NCBI RefSeq assembly: GCF_016900775.1
Contig: NZ_JACJKN010000008.1
Coordinates: forward strand, 1-64,000
DNA: 64,000 nt
From: Olsenella uli
GTDB lineage: Bacteria; Actinomycetota; Coriobacteriia; Coriobacteriales; Atopobiaceae
Reading direction: 5' to 3'
Shown: positions 31,692 to 49,147 of the stretch, one piece after another
Position numbering within the stretch: position 1 is the first letter of the stretch
How the letters are laid out: each line of letters starts with the position of its first letter
Translations under genes and position numbers: made by a program
The notes under the pieces: generated by a model
What the model was told of the DNA's origin: nothing
The model's database searches: none
What the model saw: the letters and a program-made list of their open reading frames with translations, nothing else

Positions 31692-31992
31692 TGTTATCTT
31701 TGCCAATGCGGCCCGGCGGGACAAGGAGCAGATCGCTTCCTACCTGCTGCATGAGCTCCAGAACCAGACGGCCGCGCGGGGCTTCCTGGACGGCCTCGAG
31801 CGCGTGACGGGCAACCTGGCGCAGTTCCCGGAGATGTACCCGCGCGTTAGCGAAGGCAGGCTCGCCGCGGGCGGCTACCGCAGGGCCGGGTTCGGGAGCT
31901 ACGTCGCGCTCTACGGCGTCAATGACGATACGGGCACGGTCGAGGTCGCCCGCGTCTTCCACGCGCTTCAGGACTACGCGCGGCTGCTCTAG
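31681..31992 (+). CDS. RelE/ParE-family toxin
   Basis: The 103-residue protein has the RelE/ParE fold pattern: YDVIFANAARRDKEQIASYL at the start, a helical hairpin, FPEMYPRVSEG and GYRRAGFGSYVALYGVND in the beta sheet, and VARVFHALQDYARLL at the end. Family members are ribosome-dependent mRNases (RelE) or gyrase inhibitors (ParE). The sequence resembles plasmid-stabilisation-type proteins and does not settle which. It overlaps the antitoxin gene by 11 bases, so the pair is co-translated. The pair lies between comEC and holA, where no other gene is normally present, so it is probably a later insertion. Confidence 0.88.
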   Translation: MAYDVIFANAARRDKEQIASYLLHELQNQTAARGFLDGLERVTGNLAQFPEMYPRVSEGRLAAGGYRRAGFGSYVALYGVNDDTGTVEVARVFHALQDYARLL

Positions 31993-33309: not shown

Positions 33310-33987
33310 CTAGCTCTCCGTGAAGTACTCCGGGTGGGAGACCGAGATGGGGTGGTAGTCGATGTGCGCCTTGCGCAGGTGGCGCGAGGTGAGGTAGGAC
33401 GCCTCGTTGGTGTCGTGCGCGGCGATGGCGTCGCGGATCTTGTGGTGCTGGTCCATGACGACGTCCCACTCCACGCCCGAGGTCAGCACCGCGAGCCAGC
33501 GGAAGCGCTCGTAGTGGACGTTGGTCATGTTGAGCCAGTCCCAGAGCGGCGCGCGGTCCGCGATGACGAAGAAGGTCTCGTGCATGAGGTTGTCCGACTC
33601 GAAGAACGCGAGCTCGTCGGCGGCCTCGACGGCGTCCTCCTGCTGCGCGATGATGGCGTCGATGCCGGCGATGTCGGCCTTGGTGGCCTTGGCGCAGCAC
33701 TCGATGACGACCTGCCGCTCGAGGCACTCGCGGGCGAAGCGCGCGTCCTCGCAGGAGCGCATGTCGATCTTGGAGACGTAGGTGCCGCTCTGGGGCACCG
33801 TGTTCACGAGCCCCTGCTGCTGGAGGAGCACGAGCGCCTCGCGCACGGGCGTGCGGCCGAGCCCGAGCTCCTCGCAGAGGCGCTTGGGCACGAGGCGCTC
33901 CCCGGGCTTGTAGCGCGAGAACACGAGCGCGCGCCGCAGGGCCTCGTAGGCCTGGGTCTGCAGGGTGGGGGTGTCCTTCTCGTGCAT
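33310..33987 (-). CDS. GntR-family (FadR/FCD) regulator, probable repressor of the uronate island
   Basis: The 225-residue protein has an N-terminal winged helix (TQAYEALRRALVFSRY, LCEELGLGRTPVREALVLL, GLVNTVPQSGTYVSKID) and a C-terminal all-helical FCD domain. Candidate metal and effector residues there are MHETFF, DQHHKIRDAI and HLRKAHIDY. UxuR and ExuR of the same subfamily respond to fructuronate or glucuronate. The ATG at 33987 has GAAGGACG upstream; the frame is open 13 codons more. It is divergent from the uxuB-like gene, with operator-like AACTAATATATCAGTT between them. Its direct control of the five palindromes is inferred, not shown. Confidence 0.9.
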   Translation of the reverse strand: MHEKDTPTLQTQAYEALRRALVFSRYKPGERLVPKRLCEELGLGRTPVREALVLLQQQGLVNTVPQSGTYVSKIDMRSCEDARFARECLERQVVIECCAKATKADIAGIDAIIAQQEDAVEAADELAFFESDNLMHETFFVIADRAPLWDWLNMTNVHYERFRWLAVLTSGVEWDVVMDQHHKIRDAIAAHDTNEASYLTSRHLRKAHIDYHPISVSHPEYFTES

Positions 33988-34160: not shown

Positions 34161-34189
34161 TTGAGTTGGAGGGGCGCTCAAACTAATAT
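34161..34189 (+). promoter_or_regulatory. uxuB promoter overlapping an operator
   Basis: TTGAGT (34161-34166), 17 bases, TAATAT (34184-34189). The -10 lies inside the palindrome at 34181-34196, so a bound repressor would block polymerase. The rest of 33988-34264 shows no gene. Confidence 0.6.
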
Positions 34190-34196
34190 ATCAGTT
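34181..34196. promoter_or_regulatory. Operator 1 of the uronate regulon
   Basis: AACTAATATATCAGTT: the shared palindrome with A in place of G at position 5. It lies between the divergent GntR and uxuB-like genes. Confidence 0.75.
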
Positions 34197-34264: not shown

Positions 34265-35878
34265 ATGGCAACACTCAAGAACTGGCAGGAGAGCCGCGAC
34301 GAGCTCGAGGGCAAGGGGGTGCGCCTGCCCCAGTGCGACGTCGACGCCCTGCGCAAGGCGGGCGCCGAGCAGCCGGTGTGGATGCACTTCGGCGGCGGCA
34401 ACCTCTACCGCGCCTTCCACGCCCAGATCGCGCAGGACCTCGCGGACAAGGGGCTGCTCTCCCGCGGCGTCGTGGTGGCGGAGACCTTCCGCCCGTTCAC
34501 GATCGACGAGGTCTACGCCCCCTATGACAACAACATCCTGCAGGTCGTCATGAACGCCGACGGCACGCTCGACGAGCGCGTGCTCGCCGTCACGGCCGGC
34601 GCCATCTTCGCCAACGCCGACCGCCCGACCGACTACGCCCTCGCGCGCCGCTACTTCGAGAGCCCCGACCTCCAGCTGGTCACCTTCACCATCACGGAGA
34701 AGGGCTACGGCCTCACCAACGCCTCCGGCAAGCTGCTGCCCTACGTGGCCGCCGAGATCGAGGCCGGCCCCGCGCACGCCGCGAGCTCCATGGGCATCGT
34801 CTGCGCGCTGCTCGTCGACCGCTTCGAGGCGGGCGCGGCGCCCATCGCCATGGTCTCCACCGACAACTTCTCGCAGAACGGCCGCCGCTTCCAGGAGGCC
34901 ATCCTCACGATCGCCCGCGGCTGGCTCGAGCACGGCCACGTCACGCAGGACTTCGTGGACTACGTCTCGGACGAGTCGCGCGTGAGCTTCCCCTGGTCGA
35001 TGATCGACCGCATCACCCCCAACCCCTCGCCCGAGACCGAGGCCGCCCTGCGCGAGCAGGGCTGGGAGGACCTCGACCTCATCACGACCTCCGGCCCGAC
35101 CTTCGCCGGCTTCGCCAACACCGAGGCGGCCCACTACCTCGTCATCGAGGACTCGTTCCCCAACGGCCGGCCGGCCCTCGAGGAGGGCGGCGTGATCATG
35201 TGCGACCGCGAAACCGCCGAGCGCGCCGATACCATGAAGGTCACCGCCTGCCTGAACCCGCTGCACACGTGCCTGGCCGTCTACGGCTGCCTGCTCGGCT
35301 ACACCCGCATCTGGCAGGAGATGGAGAACCCGGACCTCGTGGCGCTCATCAGGAGGCTCGGCTACGACGAGGACCTGCCCGTGGTCGTGGACCCCAAGGT
35401 CATCGACCCCAAGACCTTCATCGACGAGCTGCTCGCCGAGCGCCTGCCCAACAAGAGCCTGCCCGACGCACCGCAGCGCATCGCGGCCGACACCTCGCAG
35501 AAGGTGCCCATCCGCTATGGCCACACCCTGAACGCCTACCTCGAGGCGGGGCGTGACGTCTCCGGGCTCGTGGCGATCCCGCTCGTGATCGCGGGGTGGA
35601 TGCGCTACCTGCTCGCCGTCGACGATAGGGGAGAGGCCTTCGAGCCGAGCCCCGACCCGCTGCTCGCCGACCTCAGGGCCCAGCTCTCCGGCATCTCGCT
35701 CGGCGAGACCGACCCCGCCAAGATCCACGAGGCGCTGAGCCCCATCCTGTCCAACGCCGAGATCTTCTCGCTCGACCTCTACGAGGCCGGCCTCGGCGAG
35801 AAGATCGAGGGCATGTTCGCCGAGCTCAACGCCGGCCCCGGCGCCGTGGCCGCCACCATCGCGCGCTACGTCGGCTAG
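34265..35878 (+). CDS. uxuB: Mannitol dehydrogenase-family oxidoreductase, probable fructuronate reductase
   Basis: The 537 residues belong to the polyol/uronate dehydrogenase family. HFGGGNLYRAFHAQIAQDL is the nucleotide-binding start, then TFTITEKGYGLTN, STDNFSQNGRRF and a catalytic core FPWSMIDRITPNP, with KVTACLNPLHTCLAVYG and DTSQKVPIRYG. In the pathway it reduces D-fructuronate to D-mannonate with NADH. The family also includes tagaturonate and mannitol enzymes, so substrate is assigned from context: uxuA follows 44 bp later and uxaC next. GGACGGAGGAG precedes the start, and the promoter overlaps operator 1. Confidence 0.88.
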   Translation: MATLKNWQESRDELEGKGVRLPQCDVDALRKAGAEQPVWMHFGGGNLYRAFHAQIAQDLADKGLLSRGVVVAETFRPFTIDEVYAPYDNNILQVVMNADGTLDERVLAVTAGAIFANADRPTDYALARRYFESPDLQLVTFTITEKGYGLTNASGKLLPYVAAEIEAGPAHAASSMGIVCALLVDRFEAGAAPIAMVSTDNFSQNGRRFQEAILTIARGWLEHGHVTQDFVDYVSDESRVSFPWSMIDRITPNPSPETEAALREQGWEDLDLITTSGPTFAGFANTEAAHYLVIEDSFPNGRPALEEGGVIMCDRETAERADTMKVTACLNPLHTCLAVYGCLLGYTRIWQEMENPDLVALIRRLGYDEDLPVVVDPKVIDPKTFIDELLAERLPNKSLPDAPQRIAADTSQKVPIRYGHTLNAYLEAGRDVSGLVAIPLVIAGWMRYLLAVDDRGEAFEPSPDPLLADLRAQLSGISLGETDPAKIHEALSPILSNAEIFSLDLYEAGLGEKIEGMFAELNAGPGAVAATIARYVG

Positions 35879-35922: not shown

Positions 35923-37005
35923 ATGGAGCTCACCTTCCGCTGGTACGGCCCCAACGAGGAGAAGATCACGCTCGAAGAGATCAGCCAGATCCCCGGCTGC
36001 AAGGGCATCGTCGGCACGCTCTTCGACATCCCCGCAGGCGAGGTCTGGCCGCGCGAGCGCATCCACGAGCTGCGCGAGATGGTCGAGGCCCACGGGCTCA
36101 CGCTCAAGGTCATCGAGTCGGTGAACGTCTCCGACGACATCAAGATCGGCACCGAGAAGCGCGACGAGCACATCGAGAACTACAAGGAGACGATCCGCAA
36201 CCTCGCCGCCGAGGGCGTCAAGGTCATCTGCTACAACTTCATGCCGGTCTTCGACTGGGTGAAGTCCGACCTCGACTATGTCCTGCCCGACGGCTCGCGC
36301 ACGCTCGCCTTCGTCAAGGCGAACATCCCCGACGACCCGCAGGTCATCATCGACCGCGTGGCCAACGGCTCGGGCGACTTCACGCTGCCCGGCTGGGAGC
36401 CGGAGCGCCTGGCGCAGGTGCGGGCCCTCCTCGACGCCTACAAGGACATCGACGACGACAAGCTGCGCGAGAACCTCGTCTACTTCCTCGAGGCCATCAT
36501 GCCCACCTGCGAGGAGTGCGACGTCAAGATGGCCATCCACCCGGACGACCCGCCCTACTCGCTCTTTGGCCTGCCGCGCATCATCAAGAACCGCGAGGAC
36601 CTCGACTGGCTCTGCACCGCGGTGGACACGCCCTACAACGGCATCACCCTGTGCTGCGGCTCGATCGCCGAGGAGCCCGGCAACGACATCTACTCCATCC
36701 TCGCCGAGTTCACCCGCCGCGGCCGCATCCACTTCGTGCACATGCGCAACATCAAGTACATCAACCCCGACGAGCCCGGCAACAAGGACTTCTACGAGGC
36801 GCCGCACCCCAGCCCCTGCGGCTCGCTCGACATGTACAAGATGATGAGGGCCCTGCACGACAACGGCTTCACGGGCTACATGAGGCCCGACCACGGCCGC
36901 ATGATCTGGGGCGAGACGGGACGCCCGGGCTACGGCCTCTACGACCGCGCGCTCGGCATCGCCTACATCAACGGAATGTGGGAGGCCATCGAGAAGGGCG
37001 CGTAG
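35923..37005 (+). CDS. uxuA: D-mannonate dehydratase
   Basis: It dehydrates D-mannonate to 2-keto-3-deoxygluconate in a metal-dependent TIM barrel. The 360 residues start MELTFRWYGPNEEKITLEEI, a typical UxuA opening, followed by VICYNFMPVFDW, AIHPDDPPYSLFGLPRI, CCGSIAEEPGNDI, IHFVHMRNIK and GYMRPDHGRMIWGE. Length is that of the Gram-positive UxuA. AGAGAGGAGAGGG precedes the ATG. It is co-transcribed with the uxuB-like gene; a large hairpin lies between it and uxaC. Confidence 0.95.
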   Translation: MELTFRWYGPNEEKITLEEISQIPGCKGIVGTLFDIPAGEVWPRERIHELREMVEAHGLTLKVIESVNVSDDIKIGTEKRDEHIENYKETIRNLAAEGVKVICYNFMPVFDWVKSDLDYVLPDGSRTLAFVKANIPDDPQVIIDRVANGSGDFTLPGWEPERLAQVRALLDAYKDIDDDKLRENLVYFLEAIMPTCEECDVKMAIHPDDPPYSLFGLPRIIKNREDLDWLCTAVDTPYNGITLCCGSIAEEPGNDIYSILAEFTRRGRIHFVHMRNIKYINPDEPGNKDFYEAPHPSPCGSLDMYKMMRALHDNGFTGYMRPDHGRMIWGETGRPGYGLYDRALGIAYINGMWEAIEKGA

Positions 37006-37014
37006 GTCCTCTCG

Positions 37015-37095
37015 GCCCCGCCGCCGCATATGATCCCGCGCTCGGACAGCTTTGCTTCGCAAAGAACTCGCGCGGGACATATGCGACGGCGGGGC
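37015..37095. repeat. Long hairpin between uxuA and uxaC
   Basis: GCCCCGCCGCCGCATATG with following bases (37015-37041) pairs with 37070-37095 over 26 positions with one mismatch and one bulge. The loop contains a second stem, CTTTGC-TTC-GCAAAG. No T-run: a likely mRNA-processing or stability structure that may set uxaC level apart from uxuAB. Confidence 0.85.
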
Positions 37096-37172
37096 TGGTG
37101 GCTCAAGCGCCCTTCTCGGTTGCTCCCGCGCGATTCCCACCCTCTGGGTTCTGGGCGAAAGGGGATTCTTCC

Positions 37173-38588
37173 ATGCTTCTGAACGATGACTTTCTGCTGA
37201 CCACCGAGTGGGCCAGGAGGCTCTTCCACGACCACGCGGAGAAGATGCCGATCATCGACTACCACTGCCACCTCGACCCGCGCCAGATCTACGAGGACGT
37301 GCACTTCTCGGACCTCGCCCAGCTCTGGATCTGCGACAACGGCGCCGGCGACCACTACAAGTGGCGCCTCATGCGCGCCAACGGGACGCCCGAGCGCCTC
37401 ATCACCGGCGACGGCGAGCCCTACGAGAAGTTCCTCGCCTACGTGGACACCATCGAGCGCGCGCCCGGCAACCCGCTCTACGAGTGGAGCCACCTGGAGC
37501 TGCGCCGCGCCTTCGGGATCGACCTCACGATCTGCCGCGCCAACGCCGAGGAGATCTGGCGGCGCGCGGGCGAGCGCATCGCCGAGGCGGACTTCTCCGC
37601 CAAGGGCCTCATCCGCGCCTTCGACGTGCGCTGCGTCTGCACCACCGACGACCCGGCGAGCGACCTCGCCTGGCACAAGCTGCTCGCCGCCGAGGAGGCC
37701 GAGAACGGCTTCAAGGTCCTGCCGACCTTCCGCCCCGACGGCCTCATGGGCATCGACAAGCCTGACTTCGCCGCCTACATCGGCCGCCTCGCGGACGTCT
37801 CTGGCGTGGCCGTCACCGACTGGGCGAGCCTGAAGGCCGCCGCCGCCCAGCGCGTGGCCTACTTCCACGAGGTCGGCGGCCGCCTCGCGGACCACGGCAT
37901 GAACTCGTTCTTCTACGCCGGCGCCACCGAGGACGAGGTGGCCGGCATCGTGGCGCGCGCCCTTGCGGGCGAGGCCCCGAGCAAGGCCGAGGTGGACGCC
38001 TACCAGAGCGCGCTCACGCTCTTCCTCATGGGCGAGTACGAGCGCCACGGCTGGACGCTCCAGCTGCACGCCAACGTCTTCCGCAACGCCAACTCCCGCG
38101 GCTTCGCCGCGCTCGGCGCCGACGCCGGCTTTGACTCCGCCGGCGACCAGCCGGGCCTTGTGGGGCAGCTCGCCCTGCTCCTCGACGCCGCCAACAGCGC
38201 CGACGCCCTGCCCAAGACGATCATCTACACGCTTGACGAGTCCCAGTACATGGGCATCGCCACGCTCATCCAGTCCTTCCAGGGCGGCTGCCGCCAGCGC
38301 CTGCAGCTCGGCTGCGCCTGGTGGTTCTTCGACCACTTCGCGGGCATGAAGAGCCAGCTCACGATGTACGCCCAGGAGAGCCTGCTCGCCAACTTCACCG
38401 GCATGCTCACGGACTCCCGGAGCTTCCTCAGCTACCCGCGCCACGAGTACTTCCGCCGCGTGCTCTGCCACACCGTCGGCGAGTGGGTCGAGATGGGCCG
38501 GCTCCCCGAGGACGAGGCCTACCTCGGCGGCCTCATTGAGGACATCTGCTACAACAACGCGCACGACTACTTCGGCTTCTTCGAGTAG
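37173..38588 (+). CDS. uxaC: Glucuronate isomerase
   Basis: It interconverts D-glucuronate and D-fructuronate (and galacturonate/tagaturonate), the first step of the pathway. The 471-residue protein is of the amidohydrolase superfamily: MPIIDYHCHLDPRQIYED with the HxH metal site, FDVRCVCTTDDPASDL, LPTFRPDGLM, LQLHANVFRNANSRG, and TMYAQESLLANFTGMLTDSR near the end. Usual length is about 470. GAAAGGGG precedes the ATG. A 167-bp gap with a long hairpin separates it from uxuA. A 17-bp perfect stem with TTT follows the stop. Confidence 0.95.
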   Translation: MLLNDDFLLTTEWARRLFHDHAEKMPIIDYHCHLDPRQIYEDVHFSDLAQLWICDNGAGDHYKWRLMRANGTPERLITGDGEPYEKFLAYVDTIERAPGNPLYEWSHLELRRAFGIDLTICRANAEEIWRRAGERIAEADFSAKGLIRAFDVRCVCTTDDPASDLAWHKLLAAEEAENGFKVLPTFRPDGLMGIDKPDFAAYIGRLADVSGVAVTDWASLKAAAAQRVAYFHEVGGRLADHGMNSFFYAGATEDEVAGIVARALAGEAPSKAEVDAYQSALTLFLMGEYERHGWTLQLHANVFRNANSRGFAALGADAGFDSAGDQPGLVGQLALLLDAANSADALPKTIIYTLDESQYMGIATLIQSFQGGCRQRLQLGCAWWFFDHFAGMKSQLTMYAQESLLANFTGMLTDSRSFLSYPRHEYFRRVLCHTVGEWVEMGRLPEDEAYLGGLIEDICYNNAHDYFGFFE

Positions 38589-38836: not shown

Positions 38837-38846
38837 GTTCTCATTA

Positions 38847-38858
38847 GTGATATATCAC
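38847..38858. promoter_or_regulatory. Operator 2 of the uronate regulon (kdgK)
   Basis: GTGATATATCAC, a perfect 12-bp palindrome with the GATATATC core shared by the island's operators, but with GT/AC arms in place of ACT/AGT. It lies 17 bp before the kdgK start. Confidence 0.7.
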
Positions 38859-38874
38859 GGGGCAAGGAGATACC

Positions 38875-39915
38875 ATGGCTGATGATGTGACGGGCAGCGG
38901 GAGGGTCCTGTCGCTCGGCGAGATCATGTGCCGCCTCTCCGTGGGCGGCGGGATGCGCCTGGCGGACGCCGCGTCCTTCGACGCGCACTACGGCGGGGCG
39001 GAGGCCAACGTCGCCATCTCGCTCGCCAACTTCGGGCACGAGGCCACCTTCGCCACGAAGGTGCCGGAGAACCCGCTCGGCGACGCGGTGGTGCGCCACC
39101 TCCACAGAAACGGCGTCGACACCTCGCAGGTCCTGCGCGGCGGGGCGCGCCTCGGCACCTACTACCTCGAGATCGGCACCGCCAATCGCGGGTCGGTCGC
39201 CGTCTACGACCGCGCCGGCTCCTCGTTCGCGACGATGGCGTCCTGCGAATGGGACGTCGACGAGCTCTTCTCGGGCGTGGGGCTCTTCCACGTGACGGGC
39301 ATCTGCCCGGCGCTCTCCGCGTCCTGGCGCGCGCTCACGCTCGAGCTCGTGCGCGCCGCGGCCGAGCGCGGCATCCCCGTGAGCTACGACGTCAACTTCC
39401 GGGGCAAGCTCTGGACGTGGGACGAGTGCATGGACGCCTTCCGCGACGTCCTGCCCTACGTCACCTACCTCGCCGCGAGCTGGGGCGACGTCCAGAGCGC
39501 CCTCGGCCTTGCGCGCACGCCCTGGAGCGAGGAGGCCATGGTCGCGGCCTACGATGCGCTCGTCGCCGCCCATCCGGGCGTCCGCGCCATCTACTGCACG
39601 CGGCGCGTCGCGCACTCGAGCAGCTCGAACGACCTCACCGGCTACCTCTACACGGCCGACGGCACGGGCGCCGCGGGATCGCTCGCGCGCTCCCGCACCT
39701 GGCACGTGGAGCCCATCGTCGACCGCGTGGGCGGCGGCGACGCCTTCGCCGGCGGCGTGCTCCACGGGCTTCTCGCCGAGATGGCGCCTGCCGACGCCAT
39801 CGAGTTCGCGGCCGCGGCGAGCGTGCTCAAGCACAGCGTGGCGGGCGACGCCAACCGCTTCACGGCCGCCGAGGTCACCGACTTCATGGCCAGCGGCGCT
39901 GACGTCAAGCGCTAG
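38875..39915 (+). CDS. kdgK: 2-keto-3-deoxygluconate kinase (PfkB family)
   Basis: It phosphorylates 2-keto-3-deoxygluconate to KDPG. The 346-residue protein has PfkB motifs: AHYGGAEANVAISLANFG near the start and the ATP/anion site DRVGGGDAFAGGVLHGLL with the catalytic aspartate near the end. Sugar kinases of this family differ mainly in small loops, so the substrate is assigned from its place before eda in a uronate island. GCAAGGAGATACC precedes the ATG. It has its own operator. The gap to eda holds two REP-like hairpins. Confidence 0.92.
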   Translation: MADDVTGSGRVLSLGEIMCRLSVGGGMRLADAASFDAHYGGAEANVAISLANFGHEATFATKVPENPLGDAVVRHLHRNGVDTSQVLRGGARLGTYYLEIGTANRGSVAVYDRAGSSFATMASCEWDVDELFSGVGLFHVTGICPALSASWRALTLELVRAAAERGIPVSYDVNFRGKLWTWDECMDAFRDVLPYVTYLAASWGDVQSALGLARTPWSEEAMVAAYDALVAAHPGVRAIYCTRRVAHSSSSNDLTGYLYTADGTGAAGSLARSRTWHVEPIVDRVGGGDAFAGGVLHGLLAEMAPADAIEFAAAASVLKHSVAGDANRFTAAEVTDFMASGADVKR

Positions 39916-39916
39916 C

Positions 39917-39947
39917 CTGCGAATTGGGGACAGTCCCCGATTCGCAG
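39917..39947. repeat. REP-like hairpin 1 (GGGGACAGTCCCC)
   Basis: CTGCGAATTGGGGA, loop CAG, TCCCCGATTCGCAG: a 14-bp stem with one G-T pair, one base after the kdgK stop. Confidence 0.9.
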
Positions 39948-39965
39948 ATATGATTGATATCAAAC

Positions 39966-39971
39966 TATTAT
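39966..39971 (+). promoter_or_regulatory. Possible -10 of eda
   Basis: TATTAT in a short AT-rich stretch between the two REP hairpins, preceded by the palindrome TTGATATCAA (39954-39963), which resembles but does not match the regulon operator. Confidence 0.35.
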
Positions 39972-39974
39972 GTA

Positions 39975-39995
39975 AATTGGGGACTGTCCCCAATT
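39975..39995. repeat. REP-like hairpin 2 (GGGGACTGTCCCC)
   Basis: AATTGGGGA, loop CTG, TCCCCAATT, followed by CGCAG as in hairpin 1. A direct near-copy 53 bp downstream of the first. Confidence 0.9.
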
Positions 39996-40016
39996 CGCAG
40001 ACGTGAGGGGGAGCCC

Positions 40017-40658
40017 ATGTACATGGACAGCTACTACGAGAAGGTCGAGAGGCTCGCGATCATCCCGGTCGTCGTCCTGGACGACGCCGCCGACGCCAAG
40101 CCGCTCGCCGACGCGCTCGTCGCCGGCGGGATGCCCTCGGCCGAGGTGACGTTCCGCACGGCCGCCGCGGCCGACTCCATCCGCGCCATGCGCGCCGCGC
40201 ACCCGGACATGGCGGTGGGCGCGGGCACCGTGCTCTCCGTCGATCAGGTCGACGAGGCCGTCGAGGCGGGCGCCGAGTTCATCGTGAGCCCGGGCTTCGA
40301 CGAGGAGGTTGTCCGCCACTGCATGGAGCGCGAGCTCCCGGTCTTCCCGGCCTGCGTCACTCCCACCGAGGTCATCGCCGCCCGCAAGCTCGGCATCCAC
40401 GTGACCAAGTTCTTCCCGGCCGCGCAGTACGGCGGCCTCTCCACCATCAACGCGCTCGCCGCGCCCTTCGTGGGGCACCGCTTCATGCCGACGGGCGGCG
40501 TCTCGCCGGCCAACGTGGCTGAGTTCCTCGCGAGCCCTCACGTGATCGCCTGCGGCGGCACCTGGATGGTCAAGGCCAACCTCATCAAGGAGGGCCGCTT
40601 CGACGAGGTCGAGCGACTCTGCCGCGAGGCCATGGGCATCGTGGCCACGGTGCGGTAG
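40017..40658 (+). CDS. eda: KDPG aldolase (2-keto-3-deoxy-6-phosphogluconate aldolase)
   Basis: It splits KDPG to pyruvate and glyceraldehyde-3-phosphate, feeding glycolysis. The 213-residue TIM barrel has AIIPVVVLDDAADA, a general-base glutamate in SAEVTFRTAAA, VGAGTVLSVDQVDEAVEAGA, and the Schiff-base lysine in GIHVTKFFPAAQYGG. It ends with MPTGGVSPANVAEFL and CGGTWMVK. GAGGGGGA precedes the ATG at 40017; the longer frame upstream runs through a REP hairpin. It completes the island's pathway from glucuronate. It has no own copy of the regulon operator and may be transcribed from kdgK or from a promoter within the REP pair. Confidence 0.95.
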   Translation: MYMDSYYEKVERLAIIPVVVLDDAADAKPLADALVAGGMPSAEVTFRTAAAADSIRAMRAAHPDMAVGAGTVLSVDQVDEAVEAGAEFIVSPGFDEEVVRHCMERELPVFPACVTPTEVIAARKLGIHVTKFFPAAQYGGLSTINALAAPFVGHRFMPTGGVSPANVAEFLASPHVIACGGTWMVKANLIKEGRFDEVERLCREAMGIVATVR

Positions 40659-40897: not shown

Positions 40898-40911
40898 ACT
40901 GATATATCAGT
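40898..40911. promoter_or_regulatory. Operator 3 of the uronate regulon (GH2 gene)
   Basis: ACTGATATATCAGT, a perfect 14-bp palindrome (AACTG/CAGTT-type flank on the right). It overlaps a -10 TAGACT at 40895-40900. Confidence 0.8.
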
Positions 40912-40957: not shown

Positions 40958-42922
40958 ATGCGCACGTATACGAACCTGAACGCGGGCTGGACCTTCACCA
41001 AGCCGGGGGACGCCCCGATCACGGTGGACGTCCCGCACACCTGGAACAACCTTGACGGCCAGGACGGCGGCAACGACTACTGGCGCGGGACCTGCGCCTA
41101 CGAGCGCCGCTTCACGGTCCCGGCGTTCGACCCCAAGAGGCAGGTCGTCTACCTCGAGTTCGAGGGCGTCAACGCCACGGCGGACGTCGAGGTCAACGGC
41201 ATCGCGTGCTGCCACCACGACGGCGGCTACTCCACCTTCCGCACCAACGTCACCGAGCTCGTGAAGCCCGGCGACAACGGCCTGCTCGTCCACGTTGACA
41301 ACTCCAAGAACGACCGCGTCTACCCCCAGAAGGCCGACTTCACCTTCTACGGCGGCATCTACCGCGACGTGCGCCTGCTCGTTGCCGACGCCACGCACTT
41401 CTCGCTCGACTACCACGGCGGCTCCGGCATCGCCGTCACGCCCAAGATCTCCGACGGCGAGAAGGACGCGGACGTGCGCGTGCAGACCTGGGTGGACGGG
41501 CCTGAGGCCGCCTCCGCCGAGGTCCGCGTGACCCTCGTCGACGCCTCCGGCGCCACGGTGGGCACCGCGACCGGCACCGACGTCACCGTGGCGCTGCCCG
41601 GCGCGCACCGCTGGGACGGCCTCGACGACCCGTACCTCTACACCGCCCGCTGCGAGCTCGTCGTCGCCGGCACCGTGGTGGACGAGGTCTCCACGCGCTT
41701 CGGCGTGCGCAGCTTCTCCTACGACGCCAAGGGCGGCTTCTTCCTCAACGGCCGCAGCTACCCCCTCCGCGGCGTGTGCCGCCACCAGGACCGCAAGGCG
41801 CTCGGCAACGCCCTCACGGAAAAGGAGCACCGCGAGGACATGGCCCTCATCCGCGAGATCGGCGCCAACACGCTGCGCCTCGCGCACTACCAGCAGGCCC
41901 AGTTCTTCTACGACCTCTGCGACGAGGCCGGCATCGTGGTGTGGGCGGAGATCCCCTACATCTCCGAGCACATGCCCAACGGCCGCGAGAACACCATCTC
42001 GCAGATGACCGAGCTCATCACCCAGAGCTACAACCACCCCTCGATCGTGTGCTGGGGCGTCTCCAACGAGATCACCATCTCCACCAAGGACAAGGCGGAC
42101 ATGCTTGACAACCACCGCGTCCTCGACGAGCTCTGCCACAAGCTCGATCCCACCCGCTTCACCACGCTCGCCTGCTACGCCATGTGCGGGCCCTTCAACA
42201 AGTCCGCGTTCGTGACCGACGTCGTGAGCTGGAATCTCTACCTCGGCTGGTACGTGCCGGGCCTCTTCCTCAACGACCTCTGGTTCGGCTTCTTCCGCCT
42301 CGTGCACCCCAACCGCGTCATCGGCATGTCGGAGTACGGCTGCGAGGCCATGCCCAACCTCCACTCCTCGCGGCCGCGCCGCAACGACCACACCGAGGAG
42401 TACCAGTGCGTCTACCACGAGTACATGCTCAAGTTCTTCGCCAAGCACCCGTACCTGTGGGCAACGCACGTCTGGAACATGTTCGACTTCGCCGCCGACG
42501 CGCGCGACCAGGGCGGCGAGCCAGGCATGAACCACAAGGGCCTCATCACCTTCGACCGAAAGACCAAGAAGGACTCCTTCTACATCTACAAGGCCTGGTG
42601 GAGCAGCGAGCCCTTCGTGCACCTGTGCGGCAAGCGCTACGTCGACCGCGCCGAGGAGGCCACGAGCGTCAAGGTCTACTCCAACCAGAAGGAGGTCACG
42701 CTCTTCGTCAACGGCTCCAAGCTGGAGACCCGTCGCGAGGACCCCAAGAACCCGCACGTCTTCACGTTCTTCGTCCCGCTCAAGAAGGGCGAGAACAGCA
42801 TCGAGGTCACGTCCGGCCAGCTCTCTGACTCCGGCACTATCCGCCGCGTCGACACGCCCAACCCCGACTACGTGCTCCAGAAGAAGAGCACCCAGAAGTC
42901 CAACTGGGCGGACAACGAGTAG
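40958..42922 (+). CDS. Glycoside hydrolase family 2 (beta-glucuronidase or beta-galactosidase)
   Basis: The 654-residue protein has the three-part GH2 core: a jelly-roll sugar-binding domain (VPHTWNNLDGQDGGNDYWRG), an Ig-like domain, and a TIM barrel. The acid/base glutamate is E371 (WGVSNEI) and the nucleophile E459 (MSEYGCEA). An N-x-K motif (N525, K527 in GMNHKGL) matches the carboxylate-recognition motif of beta-glucuronidases. Related beta-galactosidases can show a similar segment, so specificity is uncertain. Context (uronate pathway, GPH transporter) favours glucuronide. No signal peptide: it acts in the cytoplasm on imported substrate. AGGAAAGAGGG precedes the ATG. Confidence 0.9.
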   Translation: MRTYTNLNAGWTFTKPGDAPITVDVPHTWNNLDGQDGGNDYWRGTCAYERRFTVPAFDPKRQVVYLEFEGVNATADVEVNGIACCHHDGGYSTFRTNVTELVKPGDNGLLVHVDNSKNDRVYPQKADFTFYGGIYRDVRLLVADATHFSLDYHGGSGIAVTPKISDGEKDADVRVQTWVDGPEAASAEVRVTLVDASGATVGTATGTDVTVALPGAHRWDGLDDPYLYTARCELVVAGTVVDEVSTRFGVRSFSYDAKGGFFLNGRSYPLRGVCRHQDRKALGNALTEKEHREDMALIREIGANTLRLAHYQQAQFFYDLCDEAGIVVWAEIPYISEHMPNGRENTISQMTELITQSYNHPSIVCWGVSNEITISTKDKADMLDNHRVLDELCHKLDPTRFTTLACYAMCGPFNKSAFVTDVVSWNLYLGWYVPGLFLNDLWFGFFRLVHPNRVIGMSEYGCEAMPNLHSSRPRRNDHTEEYQCVYHEYMLKFFAKHPYLWATHVWNMFDFAADARDQGGEPGMNHKGLITFDRKTKKDSFYIYKAWWSSEPFVHLCGKRYVDRAEEATSVKVYSNQKEVTLFVNGSKLETRREDPKNPHVFTFFVPLKKGENSIEVTSGQLSDSGTIRRVDTPNPDYVLQKKSTQKSNWADNE

Positions 42923-43003: not shown

Positions 43004-43156
43004 TCCGGGTACGTACGCGCCCCCTCCGGGTACGTACACCCCGCGGGGGGCCGTGGACGCCGCACTCCTGATAAACCCGCAGGTAGGCGGCGGTGCGAGA
43101 AGAACATCAAACTTTGAATCCCGTACGTACCCGGAGGCGAGGTGTACGCACCCGGA
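43004..43156. repeat. Mirror-arranged TCCGGGTACGTAC repeats
   Basis: TCCGGGTACGTAC at 43004 and 43025 is matched in reverse complement at 43123 and, with one change, 43144. The 34-bp arms are 85 bp apart. The 532-bp gap 42923-43454 holds this array, the GH2 terminator, the GH3 promoter/operator and no gene. Confidence 0.85.
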
Positions 43157-43305
43157 GGGGAGCCCCGGGGGAGGGGAGGCCCGCGCGCCCCTGCCTCGCC
43201 CCGGGCGAGAAGGACGTCGGGCCTAAACCTACCGTAGGGCGAGAAGAACCGTCCGTTGGCGGGTTTTGCGGAGATTGTCTCCTGTCCCTGTGAAGGATTT
43301 GCGGT

Positions 43306-43311
43306 TAGACT
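43306..43311 (+). promoter_or_regulatory. -10 box of the GH3 operon
   Basis: TAGACT, overlapping the left arm of operator 4. The same hexamer serves the rimP and GH2 promoters. No convincing -35. Confidence 0.55.
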
Positions 43312-43322
43312 GATATATCAGT
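43309..43322. promoter_or_regulatory. Operator 4 of the uronate regulon (GH3 gene)
   Basis: ACTGATATATCAGT, identical to the GH2 and transporter operators. A leader of about 130 bases follows before the preferred start. Confidence 0.8.
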
Positions 43323-43454: not shown

Positions 43455-46400
43455 ATGAGCAACGAAGCTCGTCCCAAGACGCTGGTGACACGTCGCGGCC
43501 TGTTCGGCCTCGGCGCGCTCGGCGCCTCCGTCGCCGTGGGCGCGGGTGGCGTCATGGAGCAGTTCGCCTCCACGCTCGACACCAACCTCGGCACCCAGAG
43601 CGAGAAGCTCACGTCCGAGAGCACGGAGAACGAGCCCCTTTACGAGGCGTTCAAGCCCTCCGACGAGGTTCTGAACGAGGACGGCACGGGCAACTCCCAC
43701 GCCCTCATCCAGAAGGCCATCGACCTCAACCGCAAGCAGGCGGCCGAGGGCGCGGTCCTGCTGAAGAACAGCTCCGAGGAGGGGCGCGGCCTGCCGATCG
43801 CCGAGGGCTCCAACGTGACCCTGCTCGGCATCAGGTCCCACATGCCCATGCTCGGCTCGAGCTTCGGCCTCAAGCTCTTCGGCCCCTGCATCACGCTCGA
43901 GCAGGCGCTCACCCAGAGCAAGACCGACTTCGCCAACACCATCACCACCAACGTCGACCGCAGCACGGGCGCGATCGCACCGACCATCTCCAGCTGGTCG
44001 GGCGACGAGTTCGACTTCGACGGCGCCGGCTTCAACGTCAACCCCACGATGGTCGACGCCTATGAGGCGCTCGGGGAGTCCTTCCCGCACGCCACGTGCG
44101 AGATGACGGTTACCGAGTACGACCCGAAGGAGCCCGGCGTCGCCGACATCGAGGGCGTCAACGGCGACTTCCGCTCGAGCTTCGCCGAGTACGGCGACGC
44201 CGCGATCGTGGTCATCTCCCGCCCGTCCGCCGAGTCGATCGACTACCTGCCCGGCAGCGTCGTGGCCGGCCTCGGCGTCGACGAGCCGCTTCAGCTCACC
44301 GACAACGAGCGCGCCGCGATCGACCTCGCCAAGGAGTGCTCCGGCAACGTCGTGGTGATCCTCAACACCGCCAACGCGGTCGAGATCAAGGACCTCGCGG
44401 ACGACCCGGACGTCTCCGCCATCCTGTGGATCGGCTTCCCGGGCTGCTACGGCATGCTCGGCGTCGCCGACGTGCTGAGCGGCAAGGTGAGCCCCTCGGG
44501 CGCCCTCACGGACACCTACGCCACGCACAACATGAGCGCCCCCGCCATGCAGAACATGGGCGACTACCACTACGCCAACTCCGACATCCTCACCCGCAAG
44601 GGCGGCATGTTCGGCGACCTGTCCTCGAACTACCTCATCGAGTGCGAGGGCATCTACGTCGGGTACAAGTACTACGAGACCCGCTACTTCGACCAGGTCA
44701 TGGGCCTGGGCAACGCGACCTCGGCCGCTGGCGCCACCGCGGGCGACACGTGGAACTACGCCGACGAGATGGTCTACCCGTTCGGCTACGGCCTCTCCTA
44801 CACCACCTTCAGCCAGGAGCCGGTCGGCGAGCCCGAGCTCGAGCTGACCACGCTCGACAACGGCGCCACCACCGCCTACGTGACCTTCAACGTCAACGTC
44901 ACCAACACCGGCGACACGGCGGGCAAGTCCATCGTCGAGATCTGGGGCCAGGCCCCCTACACCGCGGGCGGCGTGGAGAAGTCCGCGATCCAGCTCCTCA
45001 ACTTCGAGAAGACCGACGAGCTCGAGCCCGGCGCCTCCCAGCAGGTCTCCGTGAAGGTCGACCTCCAGTACATCGCGAGCTGGGACAGCTCCCACGAGAA
45101 CGAGGACGGCACCGAGGGCACCTACGTCATCGACCCAGGCACCTATTACTTCGCGCTCGGCAACGGCGCGCACGAGGCCGTGAACAACGTCCTTCTCGCC
45201 CAGGGCGTCGACGCCTCCCGACTGGCCGGCACCGGCGACGCCGCCAAGGTCTGGACCATGGCCATCACCGACGCCGAGGTGCCCCGCACCGCGCTCTCGA
45301 TCTCCAAGAACGGTGCGCAGGTCTCCAACCACCTCGAGACGGCCGACTGGAACTACTTCCAGCCCGGCGAGGTCACCTACCTCTCCCGCTCCGACTGGGA
45401 GGGCACCTGGCCTGTCGAGTACGCCGACATGACGCTCGAGAACGAGCAGCTCATCGACTACCTCAACGGCCACTACTACGACGTCAAGACCGACGACGAC
45501 CTCTCCGGCATCACCTGGGGCGCCGACTCCGACCTCATGATCTGGGACATGGCCGGCAAGACCTATGACGACCCCGCCTGGAACGAGCTGCTCGACAAGA
45601 TGACCCTCGAGGAGGCGCTCTACCTCGCCACCTTCGGCGGCCCCTCCATCCCCGGCGTCGAGTCGATCGGCCTGCAGGAGCACTACCTCACCGAGAACGC
45701 CGGCAACGGCATCGTCATCGCCCTCAACGCCACGCAGGACTCCAACGCCCCGTGGACCATCGGCGCTGACGACCCCAACGGCGCCTGGAACGGCGCGGTC
45801 TTCGGCAACGCGCCCCTGACCGCCGCCTCGTTCAACAACTCCCTCTACTTCGAGATGGGCCAGTTCATGGGCGAGGAGTCGCTGTTCACCGGCATCGCGA
45901 TGCTCTGGGGCCCGGGCCTCAACATCCACCGTCAGCAGTACAACGGCCGCAACGGCGAGTACTACTCCGAGGACCCCGTGCTCTGCGGCAACACCGCCAT
46001 GGAGTACTCGATGGGCGCCCTCGAGTACGGCCTCATCGCGTCGCCGAAGCACTTCGCCTTCAACGACCAGGAGACCAACCGCTCCGGCGTGGCGCCGTAC
46101 ATGACCGAGCAGCAGGCCCGCGAGGGCGAGCTGCGCGGCTGGCAGATCGCCTTCGAGGCCACCGACTACGACACCGAGGACCGCAACGCCAACATGACGG
46201 GCCTCATGACGTCGTTCTCCAAGATCGGCCCGATCGAGTGCACCTGCTCCACCGGCCTCATGACCGACATCCTCAAGAACGAGTGGGGCTTCCGCGGCTA
46301 CGCTGTCACGGACATCTACGACGACACCGACCTCTGGGCGGCCGTCCTGGTCTCCGGCACCACCTGCTTCGACACCCGCGGCATCTCCGGCTTCTATGAC

Positions 46401-46700
46401 TCCACCACGCTCGAGAACTGCTCGACCTTCGCCAACCAGATCGACGGCGTCTCCATCGGCGTGGACAAGGTCAAGGGCGACGCCACGGTTCAGAAGGCCG
46501 TCAAGGAGTCCGCGCACATGATCCTGTACGCCATGACCCAGTCCAACCTCACCAACCGCTACAACAGCACCACGCACATGGAGCCGCAGTTCACCTGGTG
46601 GCGCGGCGCGTACATCGGGGCCGCCGCCGCGTTCGGCCTGCTCGCCGTCGGCGCCGCCGCCTCTGCGGCCATGAGCTCCAAGAAGAGTAAGGAGGCGTAG
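43455..46700 (+). CDS. Glycoside hydrolase family 3 with permuted domains, exported and membrane-anchored
   Basis: The 1081-residue protein begins with a twin-arginine-type signal (TRRGLFGLGALGASVAVGAGG, Arg13-Arg14). The domain usually found at the C-terminus comes first: EGAVLLKN near residue 97 and FPGCYGMLGVADVLSG. A fibronectin III-like region follows (~457-580), then the catalytic barrel (~705-1040) with SPKHFAFNDQETNRSG and GFRGYAVTDIYDD, placing the nucleophile at Asp953. It ends with a membrane helix (~1052-1072) and a basic tail. It should act outside the cell on a beta-linked glycoside. The ATG at 43455 has GAGGGGGG; an earlier ATG at 43356 would bury the signal. Confidence 0.9.
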   Translation: MSNEARPKTLVTRRGLFGLGALGASVAVGAGGVMEQFASTLDTNLGTQSEKLTSESTENEPLYEAFKPSDEVLNEDGTGNSHALIQKAIDLNRKQAAEGAVLLKNSSEEGRGLPIAEGSNVTLLGIRSHMPMLGSSFGLKLFGPCITLEQALTQSKTDFANTITTNVDRSTGAIAPTISSWSGDEFDFDGAGFNVNPTMVDAYEALGESFPHATCEMTVTEYDPKEPGVADIEGVNGDFRSSFAEYGDAAIVVISRPSAESIDYLPGSVVAGLGVDEPLQLTDNERAAIDLAKECSGNVVVILNTANAVEIKDLADDPDVSAILWIGFPGCYGMLGVADVLSGKVSPSGALTDTYATHNMSAPAMQNMGDYHYANSDILTRKGGMFGDLSSNYLIECEGIYVGYKYYETRYFDQVMGLGNATSAAGATAGDTWNYADEMVYPFGYGLSYTTFSQEPVGEPELELTTLDNGATTAYVTFNVNVTNTGDTAGKSIVEIWGQAPYTAGGVEKSAIQLLNFEKTDELEPGASQQVSVKVDLQYIASWDSSHENEDGTEGTYVIDPGTYYFALGNGAHEAVNNVLLAQGVDASRLAGTGDAAKVWTMAITDAEVPRTALSISKNGAQVSNHLETADWNYFQPGEVTYLSRSDWEGTWPVEYADMTLENEQLIDYLNGHYYDVKTDDDLSGITWGADSDLMIWDMAGKTYDDPAWNELLDKMTLEEALYLATFGGPSIPGVESIGLQEHYLTENAGNGIVIALNATQDSNAPWTIGADDPNGAWNGAVFGNAPLTAASFNNSLYFEMGQFMGEESLFTGIAMLWGPGLNIHRQQYNGRNGEYYSEDPVLCGNTAMEYSMGALEYGLIASPKHFAFNDQETNRSGVAPYMTEQQAREGELRGWQIAFEATDYDTEDRNANMTGLMTSFSKIGPIECTCSTGLMTDILKNEWGFRGYAVTDIYDDTDLWAAVLVSGTTCFDTRGISGFYDSTTLENCSTFANQIDGVSIGVDKVKGDATVQKAVKESAHMILYAMTQSNLTNRYNSTTHMEPQFTWWRGAYIGAAAAFGLLAVGAAASAAMSSKKSKEA

Positions 46701-46704
46701 GGGG

Positions 46705-47154
46705 ATGTCCACCACTACCGCTAAGAAGGGGATCGGCTTCTTCATCGAGGCCGTCGCCCTGGTGCTCGCCGTCGTCGGCATCGTCGCCATGGTCGTGAGC
46801 GGCAGCATGGGCGTTGGCTACGAGTTCCCCAACATGCCCGTCTACCTCGTTCTCTCGGTCGTCGCGATCGCGCTCGTCGTGGTCTCGATCGCGCTCGACG
46901 CCAAGCCCGCCGACAAGGGCCCCGGCATCGTGTCCCTGCTCGCCCTGGGCGTCGCCATCTTCATCCTGGCGTATGCCGGAATCCAGGTCGTCGCGTCCCG
47001 AGCCCTCAACATCTCGGCGATCTTCTCCTGGAACTCGGGCGACACCACCGGCTGGAGCATGTTCTATGCGGCCGCGGCCTCCGCGGGCTGCATGGTGGTC
47101 TCTGCCGTGCTGCTCACCGTGGCCGGCTTCATGCCCACCTTCAAGCGTCGCTAG
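46705..47154 (+). CDS. Small membrane protein with four helices, function unknown
   Basis: The 149-residue protein has four predicted membrane segments (about 9-32, 46-64, 73-95 and 115-140) and a basic C-terminus, FMPTFKRR. I do not recognise a family. It starts 4 bp after the GH3 stop and shares its terminator, so the two are expressed together. As the GH3 protein is anchored at both ends, a helper or partner in the membrane is conceivable, but nothing in the sequence proves it. Codon use is like that of its neighbours. Confidence 0.8.
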   Translation: MSTTTAKKGIGFFIEAVALVLAVVGIVAMVVSGSMGVGYEFPNMPVYLVLSVVAIALVVVSIALDAKPADKGPGIVSLLALGVAIFILAYAGIQVVASRALNISAIFSWNSGDTTGWSMFYAAAASAGCMVVSAVLLTVAGFMPTFKRR

Positions 47155-47476: not shown

Positions 47477-47482
47477 TAAACT
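47477..47482 (+). promoter_or_regulatory. -10 box of the transporter gene
   Basis: TAAACT, overlapping operator 5 as TAGACT does at operators 3 and 4. Confidence 0.5.
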
Positions 47483-47493
47483 GATATATCAGT
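47480..47493. promoter_or_regulatory. Operator 5 of the uronate regulon (GPH transporter)
   Basis: ACTGATATATCAGT; with one more base on each side the palindrome extends to 16 bp, AACTGATATATCAGTT. Confidence 0.8.
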
Positions 47494-47542: not shown

Positions 47543-49147
47543 ATGGCAGAGAAGAATGCTCAGGCGCCGCAGCACCACGGTGCGGGCGCGACAAACCGGG
47601 CGAAGATGTACCAGCTCGTCCTGTTCCCGTTCAACAACGGCGCGACGAACGTGTACTACGTCCTCCTCATGAACTACATCGCGTATTACGCCAACGGCGT
47701 CCTGGGCCTGCTCCTGGCCTTCGCCACCACGATGGTCACGGTCACGCGCATCTTCGACGCCGTGATTGACCCGTTCATCGGAGTCTTCATCGACCGTACC
47801 GAGACCAAGATCGGCAAGTTCCGCCCGTTCATCATCCTCGGTAACGTGGTCATGGCCGTCTCGTCGCTGCTGCTCTTCTACGGCACGCGCCTCATCCCCG
47901 CCGACATGGAGCTGCTGCGGTACGTGGGCTATACCCTCTGCTACATGCTTCTCATGGTCGGCTACGCCATGCAGACCTCCTGCACGCGCTCCGGCCAGAC
48001 CTGCCTCACCAACGATCCTAACCAGCGTCCGACGTTCACGATGTTCAACACCATCGCCTCGCTCGTGGGCATGGGCGTGACCATGGCGACCGCCTCCATC
48101 GTGGGCGGCCAGGTCGGCTTTGGCACCGAGGCCTTCTTCAACTTCCTCATCCCGCTTGTCATCATTCTCTCCGCCGCCCTCACCGCGCTCGCGGTCATCG
48201 GCATTGCCGGCAAGGACCGCAAGGAGTACTGGGGCTTCGGCGAGTCCGAGGGCGAGAAGACCCAGCTCAAGATCAAGGACTACGTCGAGATCGTCAAGGG
48301 CAACAAGGAGCTCCAGCGCCTCATGGTCGCGGCATCCGGCACCAAGTTCGCCTTCGCCGTCGCCACCAACACCACTGTCGGCGTCCTGCTCTATGCCTGC
48401 ATGATGGGCGACTACAACCAGTTCTACCTGCCCATGTACGTGATGGGCTACGTGTTCTCCGCCCCGTTCTTCATCGGTGGCCTGCGCATCAGCCAGAAGT
48501 TCGGCCAGAAGAAGACGCTCGTCACCTTCACCTCGGTCGCTCTCATCTGCTACATCGGCGTCGTCGTGCTGCTTGGCATGTGGAACCCCAACGATCCGGC
48601 GTTTGGCCTCTCGCTCTGGAGCACCGAGGGCGGCTTCCACCTCACGCTCAACGCGTACACCCTCATCTTTATCGTGCTCTACGGCCTGGGCTACGGCGCG
48701 TACTACTCCACCGCCGACATGGCCATCCCGATGGTCGCCGACGTCTCCGACTACGAGATGTTCCGCTCCGGCAACTATGCGCCCGGCGTCGTGGGCACGC
48801 TCTTCTCCTTCGTTGACAAGCTCGTGAGCTCGCTTTCCACGACCGTCGTCGGCATCGCCATCACCGCAGTGGGCCTCGCCACGCTGCCTGACACCGACAC
48901 CCCCTACATGGAGGGCATGAACGTGCTCACGATCGTCCTCTTCTGCATCATCCCCATCGTCGCGTGGATTCTCACCCTCATCGCCATGAAGGGCTACAAG
49001 CTCACCGGTCCGCGCATGAAGGAGATTCAGGCCGTCAACGCCTGCCGCAAGGACGCCATCGCCGACGGCATGACCGTCGAGAAGGCCCTCGAGACCTACA
49101 AGGACGTCAAGGACATCCCCGCGGAGTACAAGGCGTCGCTCTCGTAG
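47543..49147 (+). CDS. GPH-family sugar:cation symporter, probable hexuronide transporter
   Basis: The 534-residue protein has about 12 membrane helices and the glycoside-pentoside-hexuronide signatures. These are RIFDAVIDPFIGVFIDRTETKIGKFRPFI after helix 2 and GYGAYYSTADMAIPMVADVSDYE in the second half (quoted in part). GusB and UidB-type glucuronide carriers belong here, as do melibiose and xyloside carriers. Import is coupled to H+ or Na+. The operator shared with the GH2 and uronate genes makes a glucuronide the most likely substrate. AGGGGAGAG precedes the ATG. The last ~70 residues form a cytoplasmic tail. Confidence 0.9.
   Translation: MAEKNAQAPQHHGAGATNRAKMYQLVLFPFNNGATNVYYVLLMNYIAYYANGVLGLLLAFATTMVTVTRIFDAVIDPFIGVFIDRTETKIGKFRPFIILGNVVMAVSSLLLFYGTRLIPADMELLRYVGYTLCYMLLMVGYAMQTSCTRSGQTCLTNDPNQRPTFTMFNTIASLVGMGVTMATASIVGGQVGFGTEAFFNFLIPLVIILSAALTALAVIGIAGKDRKEYWGFGESEGEKTQLKIKDYVEIVKGNKELQRLMVAASGTKFAFAVATNTTVGVLLYACMMGDYNQFYLPMYVMGYVFSAPFFIGGLRISQKFGQKKTLVTFTSVALICYIGVVVLLGMWNPNDPAFGLSLWSTEGGFHLTLNAYTLIFIVLYGLGYGAYYSTADMAIPMVADVSDYEMFRSGNYAPGVVGTLFSFVDKLVSSLSTTVVGIAITAVGLATLPDTDTPYMEGMNVLTIVLFCIIPIVAWILTLIAMKGYKLTGPRMKEIQAVNACRKDAIADGMTVEKALETYKDVKDIPAEYKASLS

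Follow-up and report, generated by a model that had tools for sequence, protein, structure and literature searches.

A permuted GH3 enzyme with a helix at each end, a four-helix membrane partner and a predicted role in glucuronide use

What would a glycosidase with reversed domain order, carrying a hydrophobic helix at each end, do beside a set of hexuronate genes? This question is raised by a gene in a window of 64,000 nucleotides (positions 1 to 64,000 of contig NZ_JACJKN010000008.1, assembly GCF_016900775.1, Olsenella uli). An earlier note on this DNA had described the product as a reversed GH3 enzyme with a twin-arginine translocation (Tat)-type signal and a C-terminal membrane anchor, and had taken its co-regulation with a cytoplasmic GH2 enzyme and a GPH carrier as a pointer to two-stage use of a glycan. 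That observation was confirmed here and its interpretation was supported in part; a gene for a membrane partner, a glucuronate pathway with its own regulator and an altered glycone pocket had been overlooked. We consider that the GH3 is probably a surface exo-glycosidase of a glucuronide-use system.

The gene is an uninterrupted reading frame, and its product matched Pfam in the order sandwich, fibronectin III (FnIII)-like domain and barrel within a single chain, every match lying above the gathering score (Table 1). An AlphaFold2 model built from 59 permuted GH3s (predicted local distance difference test, pLDDT, 87.8; predicted template modelling score, pTM, 0.90) had the same reversed order and not the standard one. 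This model aligned along its whole length to six permuted GH3 entries, 5k6l-o and 5wug/5wvp, with Z values of 33.8-34.3 over 726-740 residues (VIA-align); the alignment with 5k6m took in residues 64-1040 (Z 34.3, 731 residues, 2.6 Å). Among the structural matches listed, the other 44 rows covered the barrel region only. The barrel defined by the structural match (residues ~691 to 1040) was longer than its Pfam-matched part. Hence, the reversed order was borne out by both approaches. Asp953, already named in the earlier note, aligned with Asp709 of GlyA1, and with this predicted nucleophile on the barrel and the predicted acid/base Glu260 on the sandwich, the catalytic pair of a GlyA1-type GH3 appears intact. 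Both residues were conserved in 59/59 permuted GH3 rows of an alignment designated A3, and Glu260 in the 24 of 24 ortholog loci covering that position.

GlyA1 (PDB 5k6l-o) is a ruminal permuted GH3 β-glycosidase (PMC5104943), and its authors had already stated that the permuted topology occurs in Firmicutes, Actinobacteria and Archaea. Given this range, and the 54 non-redundant permuted GH3s aligned from related genomes, the restriction to a few rumen bacteria made in the earlier note was too narrow. The reversed order was also rejected as a novelty, as it has been known since 2016 (GlyA1; also 5WUG and BrGH3A). The enzyme studied here shares with GlyA1 the sandwich-FnIII-barrel order, the acid/base Glu, the nucleophile Asp and the equivalents of Arg597, Lys630, His631 and Arg641, with approximately 25% identity over the structural alignment, but differs from it in the helices at both ends, the linked four-helix partner and three pocket residues considered below. 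The permuted topology is also common to the Paenibacillus barengoltzii enzyme (5wug/5wvp) and BrGH3A (PMC11233000), both named β-glucosidases; in the BrGH3A main text the words 'membrane' and 'glucuron' are absent.

The gene cluster runs in the order GntR/FCD regulator (minus strand), UxuB-like oxidoreductase, UxuA, UxaC, 2-keto-3-deoxygluconate (KDG) kinase, Eda, GH2, GH3, the 149-residue membrane protein and GPH carrier, with the GH2 and GPH genes where the earlier note had placed them. UxuA, UxaC and Eda exceeded the curated NCBIfam cut-offs; the UxuB-like protein, the kinase, GH2 and GPH were named from their Pfam domains and best sub-threshold matches. The best solved relatives of the GH2, over its full length, were 7kgz (791 bits) and 6mvg (781 bits), both named β-glucuronidase, and this close similarity points to a β-glucuronidase (GUS)-type enzyme. 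Its full-length relationship to 6mvg and 6mvh (781 and 768 bits) brings it near the flavin mononucleotide (FMN)-binding gut β-glucuronidases, to which we take 6mvf, 6mvg and 6mvh to belong. The crystal structure of Roseburia hominis GUS 2 was treated as a member of this FMN-binding class (PMC9377255), in a paper whose main text contains neither 'GH3' nor 'transporter'.

Identical operator-like sites, ACTGATATATCAGT, were located ahead of the GH3, GH2 and GPH genes, in agreement with the co-regulation of these three genes proposed before, and imperfect copies were present at two further points of the cluster. The core TGATATATCA occurred at four sites in the whole 2.48-Mb genome, every one in the GH3 cluster, and ACTGATATATCAGT with three or fewer mismatches at nine sites genome-wide, the four with 0-1 mismatch all being in the cluster. 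With the pattern reversed as a control, the core search yielded one site and the loose search 16; loose matches are therefore no proof, whereas the near-perfect ones remain conspicuous. Of the 31 genus genomes, 4 contained the exact 12-mer: it was present three times in each of G000, G012 and G022, and a single time in G003, a genome with no GH3 match. By its sequence context, the GH3 gene belongs to a predicted hexuronate/glucuronide regulon beside the GntR/FCD regulator, which would recognise these sites.

Furthermore, the GH3 falls within a monophyletic subfamily common to Coriobacteriia and Bacillota. A scan of genome contigs detected nine ortholog loci, in the Coriobacteriia Thermophilibacter provencensis (Atopobiaceae, 99.7%), Olsenella sp. 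SW781 (96%) and a Coriobacteriia metagenome-assembled genome (MAG, 80%), and in the Bacillota Hungatella hathewayi, a Butyrivibrio MAG and four Oscillospiraceae MAGs (61-63%). Three further searches (E <= 1e-250) of 397, 400 and 296 genomes, each set drawn evenly from a larger group (the family of G063, the family of G064 and the class of G000), found orthologs in 4, 12 and 5 genomes, 15 of them new (loci L134-L148). The source locus, the nine first found and the 15 new ones gave 25 loci for comparison, among them the near-duplicates source locus/L088, L090/L091/L092, L139/L140, L141/L142 and L143/L145. The four-helix partner was present in 23/25 loci (the contigs of L146 and L147 end inside GH3) and a GUS-type GH2 in 21/25 (not found in L136, L141, L142 or in L148, whose contig ends inside GH3). 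GPH was found in 19/25: L136, L141 and L142 lacked it, as did L091, L146 and L147, where a contig end truncates the locus. In the Coriobacteriia MAG, uxuB-like, uxuA and uxaC genes also adjoin the cluster. By comparison, 36 stretches of varying length with permuted paralogs only (L036-L071) held no partner, GPH or uronate gene, and a single weak GH2 match (L042, 27%).

Some variants of this arrangement were observed as well. A second permuted GH3 from another branch, with Asn as the pocket residue, sits at differing points of the cluster in T. provencensis (L032:10110-13079), Olsenella SW781 (L034:1574-4603) and the Coriobacteriia MAG (L086:3831-6953); a CTGATATATCAG-like site lies upstream of it in the first two. 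One Oscillospiraceae MAG (L149:1540-5537 with L110:3582-17200) has four permuted GH3s, two of them with four-helix partners, in a region adjoining another GUS-like GH2 (63%) and a GPH (54%), which by sequence is a second, larger version of the GH3 module. A LytTR response regulator and/or a GHKL kinase is encoded upstream at three Bacillota loci (L134:3467-5499, L135:5235-5945 and L089:4527-5801).

The protein encoded directly downstream of GH3 gave no match in Pfam or NCBIfam, and its model consisted of four helices (pLDDT 84.5, pTM 0.76). In 22/22 places, picked where a partner was expected, the partner reading frame began, at its first possible start, about -38 to +20 nucleotides from the GH3 end. 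In L090-L092 (three Oscillospiraceae MAGs), GH3 and partner were fused in frame into 1217 residues. When 67 permuted GH3 rows were compared, an open reading frame (ORF) with at least three helices lay directly downstream in 12 and was fused in one (L090); the other 53 rows, not all of which extend over the full 1.5 kb, had no such ORF, and L108 had almost no downstream sequence. Partners occurred in the subfamily, in its sister rows and in three other rows from Bacillota; the genus rows L005, L007 and L008, next to these, had none. A segment LFS(W/Y/F)N...GW..FY between partner helices 3 and 4 was typical of the ortholog loci and not of the sister rows; with the basic N-terminus inside the cell, this segment would face outwards. 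Foldseek also listed claudin- and TARP-like rows (E about 0.1 to 1), for which we claim no relationship.

Regarding the GH3 termini, the N-terminus, MSNEARPKTLVTRRGLFGLGALG, lies within modelled helices 8-36 and 38-45, and the modelled C-terminal helix, which ends in SKKSKEA, bore out the hydrophobic helix described earlier. The twin-arginine motif precedes a hydrophobic stretch, and the genome encodes TatC and three TatA/B-family proteins, so that a Tat-type signal is plausible for the Coriobacteriia, where the RR pair was present in the source GH3 and in L086, L087 and L088, the orthologs with an available N-terminus. It does not extend to the Bacillota orthologs examined (58-65% identical), which have the N-terminal helix but lack RR (e.g. 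MKKTGLWRG); the motif is therefore not kept among orthologs, and the case for Tat export is weaker than the earlier note suggested. Among the remaining permuted GH3s of related genomes, several also carry TRR-like motifs (for example L013, L039, L048, L060 and L071). Because the residues directly behind the N-terminal helix are invariant among the GH3 orthologs, the helix may stay uncleaved, and we read it as a predicted anchor that bears a Tat motif in Coriobacteriia.

Several results weigh against a role in glucuronide use. L136, L141 and L142 hold GH3 and partner with neither a GUS-type GH2 nor a GPH in the available stretch; these stand-alone pairs indicate that the pair can be used elsewhere and weaken a strict glucuronide link. 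Other full-length GH2 relatives, 8ges, 8get and 6mvh, are named β-galactosidase (768 bits), and the GH2 fell under the NCBIfam β-glucuronidase cut-off (NF050095 LacZ4, 559 vs 950 bits). The Bacillota loci checked with Pfam (L134, L135 and L089) bear LytTR/GHKL regulators and not GntR, and a fold search with the partner gave no Foldseek match at E <= 0.001. The LytTR and/or GHKL proteins beside the module, ORFs that look similar at other Bacillota loci (by appearance only) and the three pairs devoid of catabolic genes would suit a pair acting chiefly as a sensor or receptor, whose cleavage or binding of a ligand at the surface would set off the regulator. Nevertheless, the Thermophilibacter regulator is a GntR/FCD protein and the GH3 retains its catalytic pair, and such a sensor seems to us very improbable.

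The -1 subsite of GlyA1 comprises Asp532, Arg597, Lys630, His631, Arg641, Tyr677, Asp709, Trp710 and Glu143 (PMC5104943). The equivalent residues of the GH3, in that order, are N748, R832, K865, H866, R876, F921, D953, I954 and E260; R, K, H and R are thus retained, and N748, F921 and I954 replace D532, Y677 and W710. N748, F921, D953 and I954 were identical in the 23/23 ortholog loci spanning them. Asn748 was found opposite the Asp of the DGP motif in alignments with sister clades, in a column of only D or N beside the variable residue 747, and this was taken as a better placement than that of early MAFFT runs and of the A1 profile against the PDB set, which put the query motif elsewhere, with a gap. 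Column 748 of A3 held D in 45 and N in 14 of the 59 rows and no other residue; Phe at 921 was common (32/59) and is no sign by itself. Loci linked to GUS/GPH accounted for 12/14 N rows vs 2/45 D rows (Fisher p 7e-9, kinship and near-duplicates being ignored in this and the following test). A3 omits incomplete frames and nine permuted rows that were long, short or low-scoring (7 D, 2 N), and with these nine added the counts were 12/16 vs 2/52 (p 2e-8). In the tree, the rows of A3 with N are spread over three parts.

In GH3 enzymes, the Asp at the DGP position binds O4 and O6 of glucose. With Asn instead of this glycone-gripping Asp, the -1 subsite might admit a C6 carboxylate, and the GH3 itself would be an exo-β-glucuronidase or β-uronidase, a more specific version of the surface exo-glycosidase that we put forward as a tentative possibility. 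The invariance of Asn748, Phe921 and Ile954 in the orthologs and the linkage of the N rows argue for it, as does the Asn of the second GH3 in the clusters of T. provencensis, Olsenella SW781 and the Coriobacteriia MAG. However, besides the relatedness ignored by the Fisher tests, the N rows L112 and L113:12027 and the long forms L053:7721 and L058:6487 lack a linked GUS in the available stretch, the linked rows L110:3582 and L110:11063 are D, and a D row and a D-type cut frame in L111 stand beside a GH2 (54%) with no close GPH. No carboxylate-binding residue was identified in the pocket from sequence. We know of no GH3 β-glucuronidase, and neither such an enzyme nor a GH3/four-helix pair was found in searches of an open-access library, with subscription papers mostly outside their reach. 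At the other extreme, the fold and catalytic residues shared with GlyA1 and the domain order shared with BrGH3A, both of which cleave β-glucosides (PMC5104943, PMC11233000), would fit a broad β-glucosidase or xylosidase placed in the regulon by chance, its sugar products being used independently of glucuronate. Against this alternative, which we hold to be unlikely, stand the three exchanges in the -1 subsite (Asn748 replacing Asp, Phe921 replacing Tyr and Ile954 replacing Trp) and the linkage to GUS-type GH2 genes in two phyla.

For the surface exo-glycosidase, the following scheme would apply. The GH3, a retaining exo-β-glycosidase of the permuted type, would face outwards from the membrane, held there by its two terminal helices. 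With the adjacent four-helix protein it would form the surface unit of the glucuronide-use system and trim an extracellular glycoside that contains glucuronic acid. The product would enter through the GPH carrier, and from it the cytoplasmic GH2 β-glucuronidase would free glucuronate, to be broken down by UxaC, the UxuB-like enzyme, UxuA, KDG kinase and Eda, with the GntR/FCD regulator governing the promoters via ACTGATATATCAGT. A bolder proposal, doubtful as a whole, is that this Actinomycetota/Bacillota subfamily is a surface-tethered β-glucuronidase, above all through the Asp-to-Asn exchange, in an obligate complex with the four-helix protein, which would present the enzyme or hand its product to the GPH carrier.

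If that were true, glucuronide use in the gut would begin with a stage outside the cell that is not assigned to GH2. Reactivation of drug and hormone glucuronides by gut bacteria has been studied mostly through GH2 enzymes. The FMN-binding β-glucuronidase class has been tied to mycophenolate reactivation (PMC9377255), and a GH2 related to this class occurs here in two phyla alongside a membrane partner, a carrier and a GH3 predicted to lie at the surface, which suggests a defined extracellular step and a natural substrate beyond a simple glucuronide. The subfamily is also a clean case for testing whether GH3 specificity can shift towards uronic acids through a few residues of the pocket, and the partner suggests a new family of membrane proteins associated with enzymes. 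As far as our searches go, the subfamily with its four-helix partner, its cross-phylum link to GUS-type GH2, GPH and glucuronate genes and the Asn/Phe/Ile pocket are apparently new.

Table 1. Positions of the GH3 gene, its predicted elements and its neighbours in the window.
Feature	Position	Strand	Basis
Permuted GH3 enzyme, 1081 aa	43455..46700	+	ORF, Pfam, AlphaFold2 model, structural alignment
N-terminal helix (residues 8-45) with TRRGLFG twin-arginine motif; putative Tat-type signal or uncleaved anchor	43476..43589	+	sequence, model
(α/β)6-sandwich domain, Glyco_hydro_3_C, residues 101-449	43755..44801	+	Pfam
Glu260, predicted acid/base (GlyA1 Glu143)	44232..44234	+	alignment column
FnIII-like domain (Pfam Fn3-like), residues 500-570	44952..45164	+	Pfam
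Asn748, replacing DGPxG Asp (GlyA1 Asp532) of -1 subsite	45696..45698	+	alignments
Catalytic (β/α)8 barrel, Pfam-matched part (Glyco_hydro_3), residues 771-954	45765..46316	+	Pfam
Asp953, predicted nucleophile (GlyA1 Asp709)	46311..46313	+	alignment
C-terminal transmembrane helix, residues 1048-1080, basic tail	46596..46694	+	sequence, model
149-aa four-helix membrane protein, GH3 partner	46705..47154	+	sequence, model
Operator-like site ACTGATATATCAGT ahead of GH3	43309..43322	.	sequence scan
Operator-like site ACTGATATATCAGT ahead of GPH carrier	47480..47493	.	sequence scan
Operator-like site ACTGATATATCAGT ahead of GH2	40898..40911	.	sequence scan
Operator-like site, 1 mismatch, between GntR gene and uxuB-like gene	34182..34195	.	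sequence scan
Operator core TGATATATCA exact, 3 mismatches to 14-mer, ahead of KDG kinase	38846..38859	.	sequence scan
GntR/FCD-family regulator, divergent from cluster	33310..33987	-	Pfam
Mannitol-dehydrogenase-family oxidoreductase, probable fructuronate reductase, UxuB-like	34265..35878	+	Pfam; NCBIfam matches below cut-offs
UxuA mannonate dehydratase	35923..37005	+	Pfam, NCBIfam
UxaC glucuronate isomerase, approximate start within ORF 36516-38588	37170..38588	+	Pfam, NCBIfam
PfkB-family kinase, probable KDG kinase	38875..39915	+	Pfam; NCBIfam matches below cut-offs
KDPG aldolase (Eda)	39954..40658	+	Pfam, NCBIfam
GH2 without evident signal peptide	40958..42922	+	Pfam; PDB relatives
GPH-family sugar:cation symporter	47543..49147	+	Pfam MFS_2 above cut-off; TIGR00792 below its cut-off

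Additionally, other features were observed in the window. An intergenic repeat at 43005-43160 contains direct and inverted copies of CCGGGTACGTAC(A/G)C, the inverted ones about 115 bp apart; 16 exact copies were counted genome-wide, with copies also in the G000 contigs C1, C2, C13, C14 and C46, and in L032 similar arrays flank a gene of the region that holds the extra GH3. This repeat is possibly a small mobile or regulatory element. A motif of paired inverted copies, GAATTGGGGACAGTCCCC / GGGGACTGTCCCCAATTC, lies ahead of the aldolase gene (39915-40000), and a pair encoding a Phd/YefM-type antitoxin and a ParE-type toxin (31422-31992) precedes the gene for the DNA polymerase III delta subunit.

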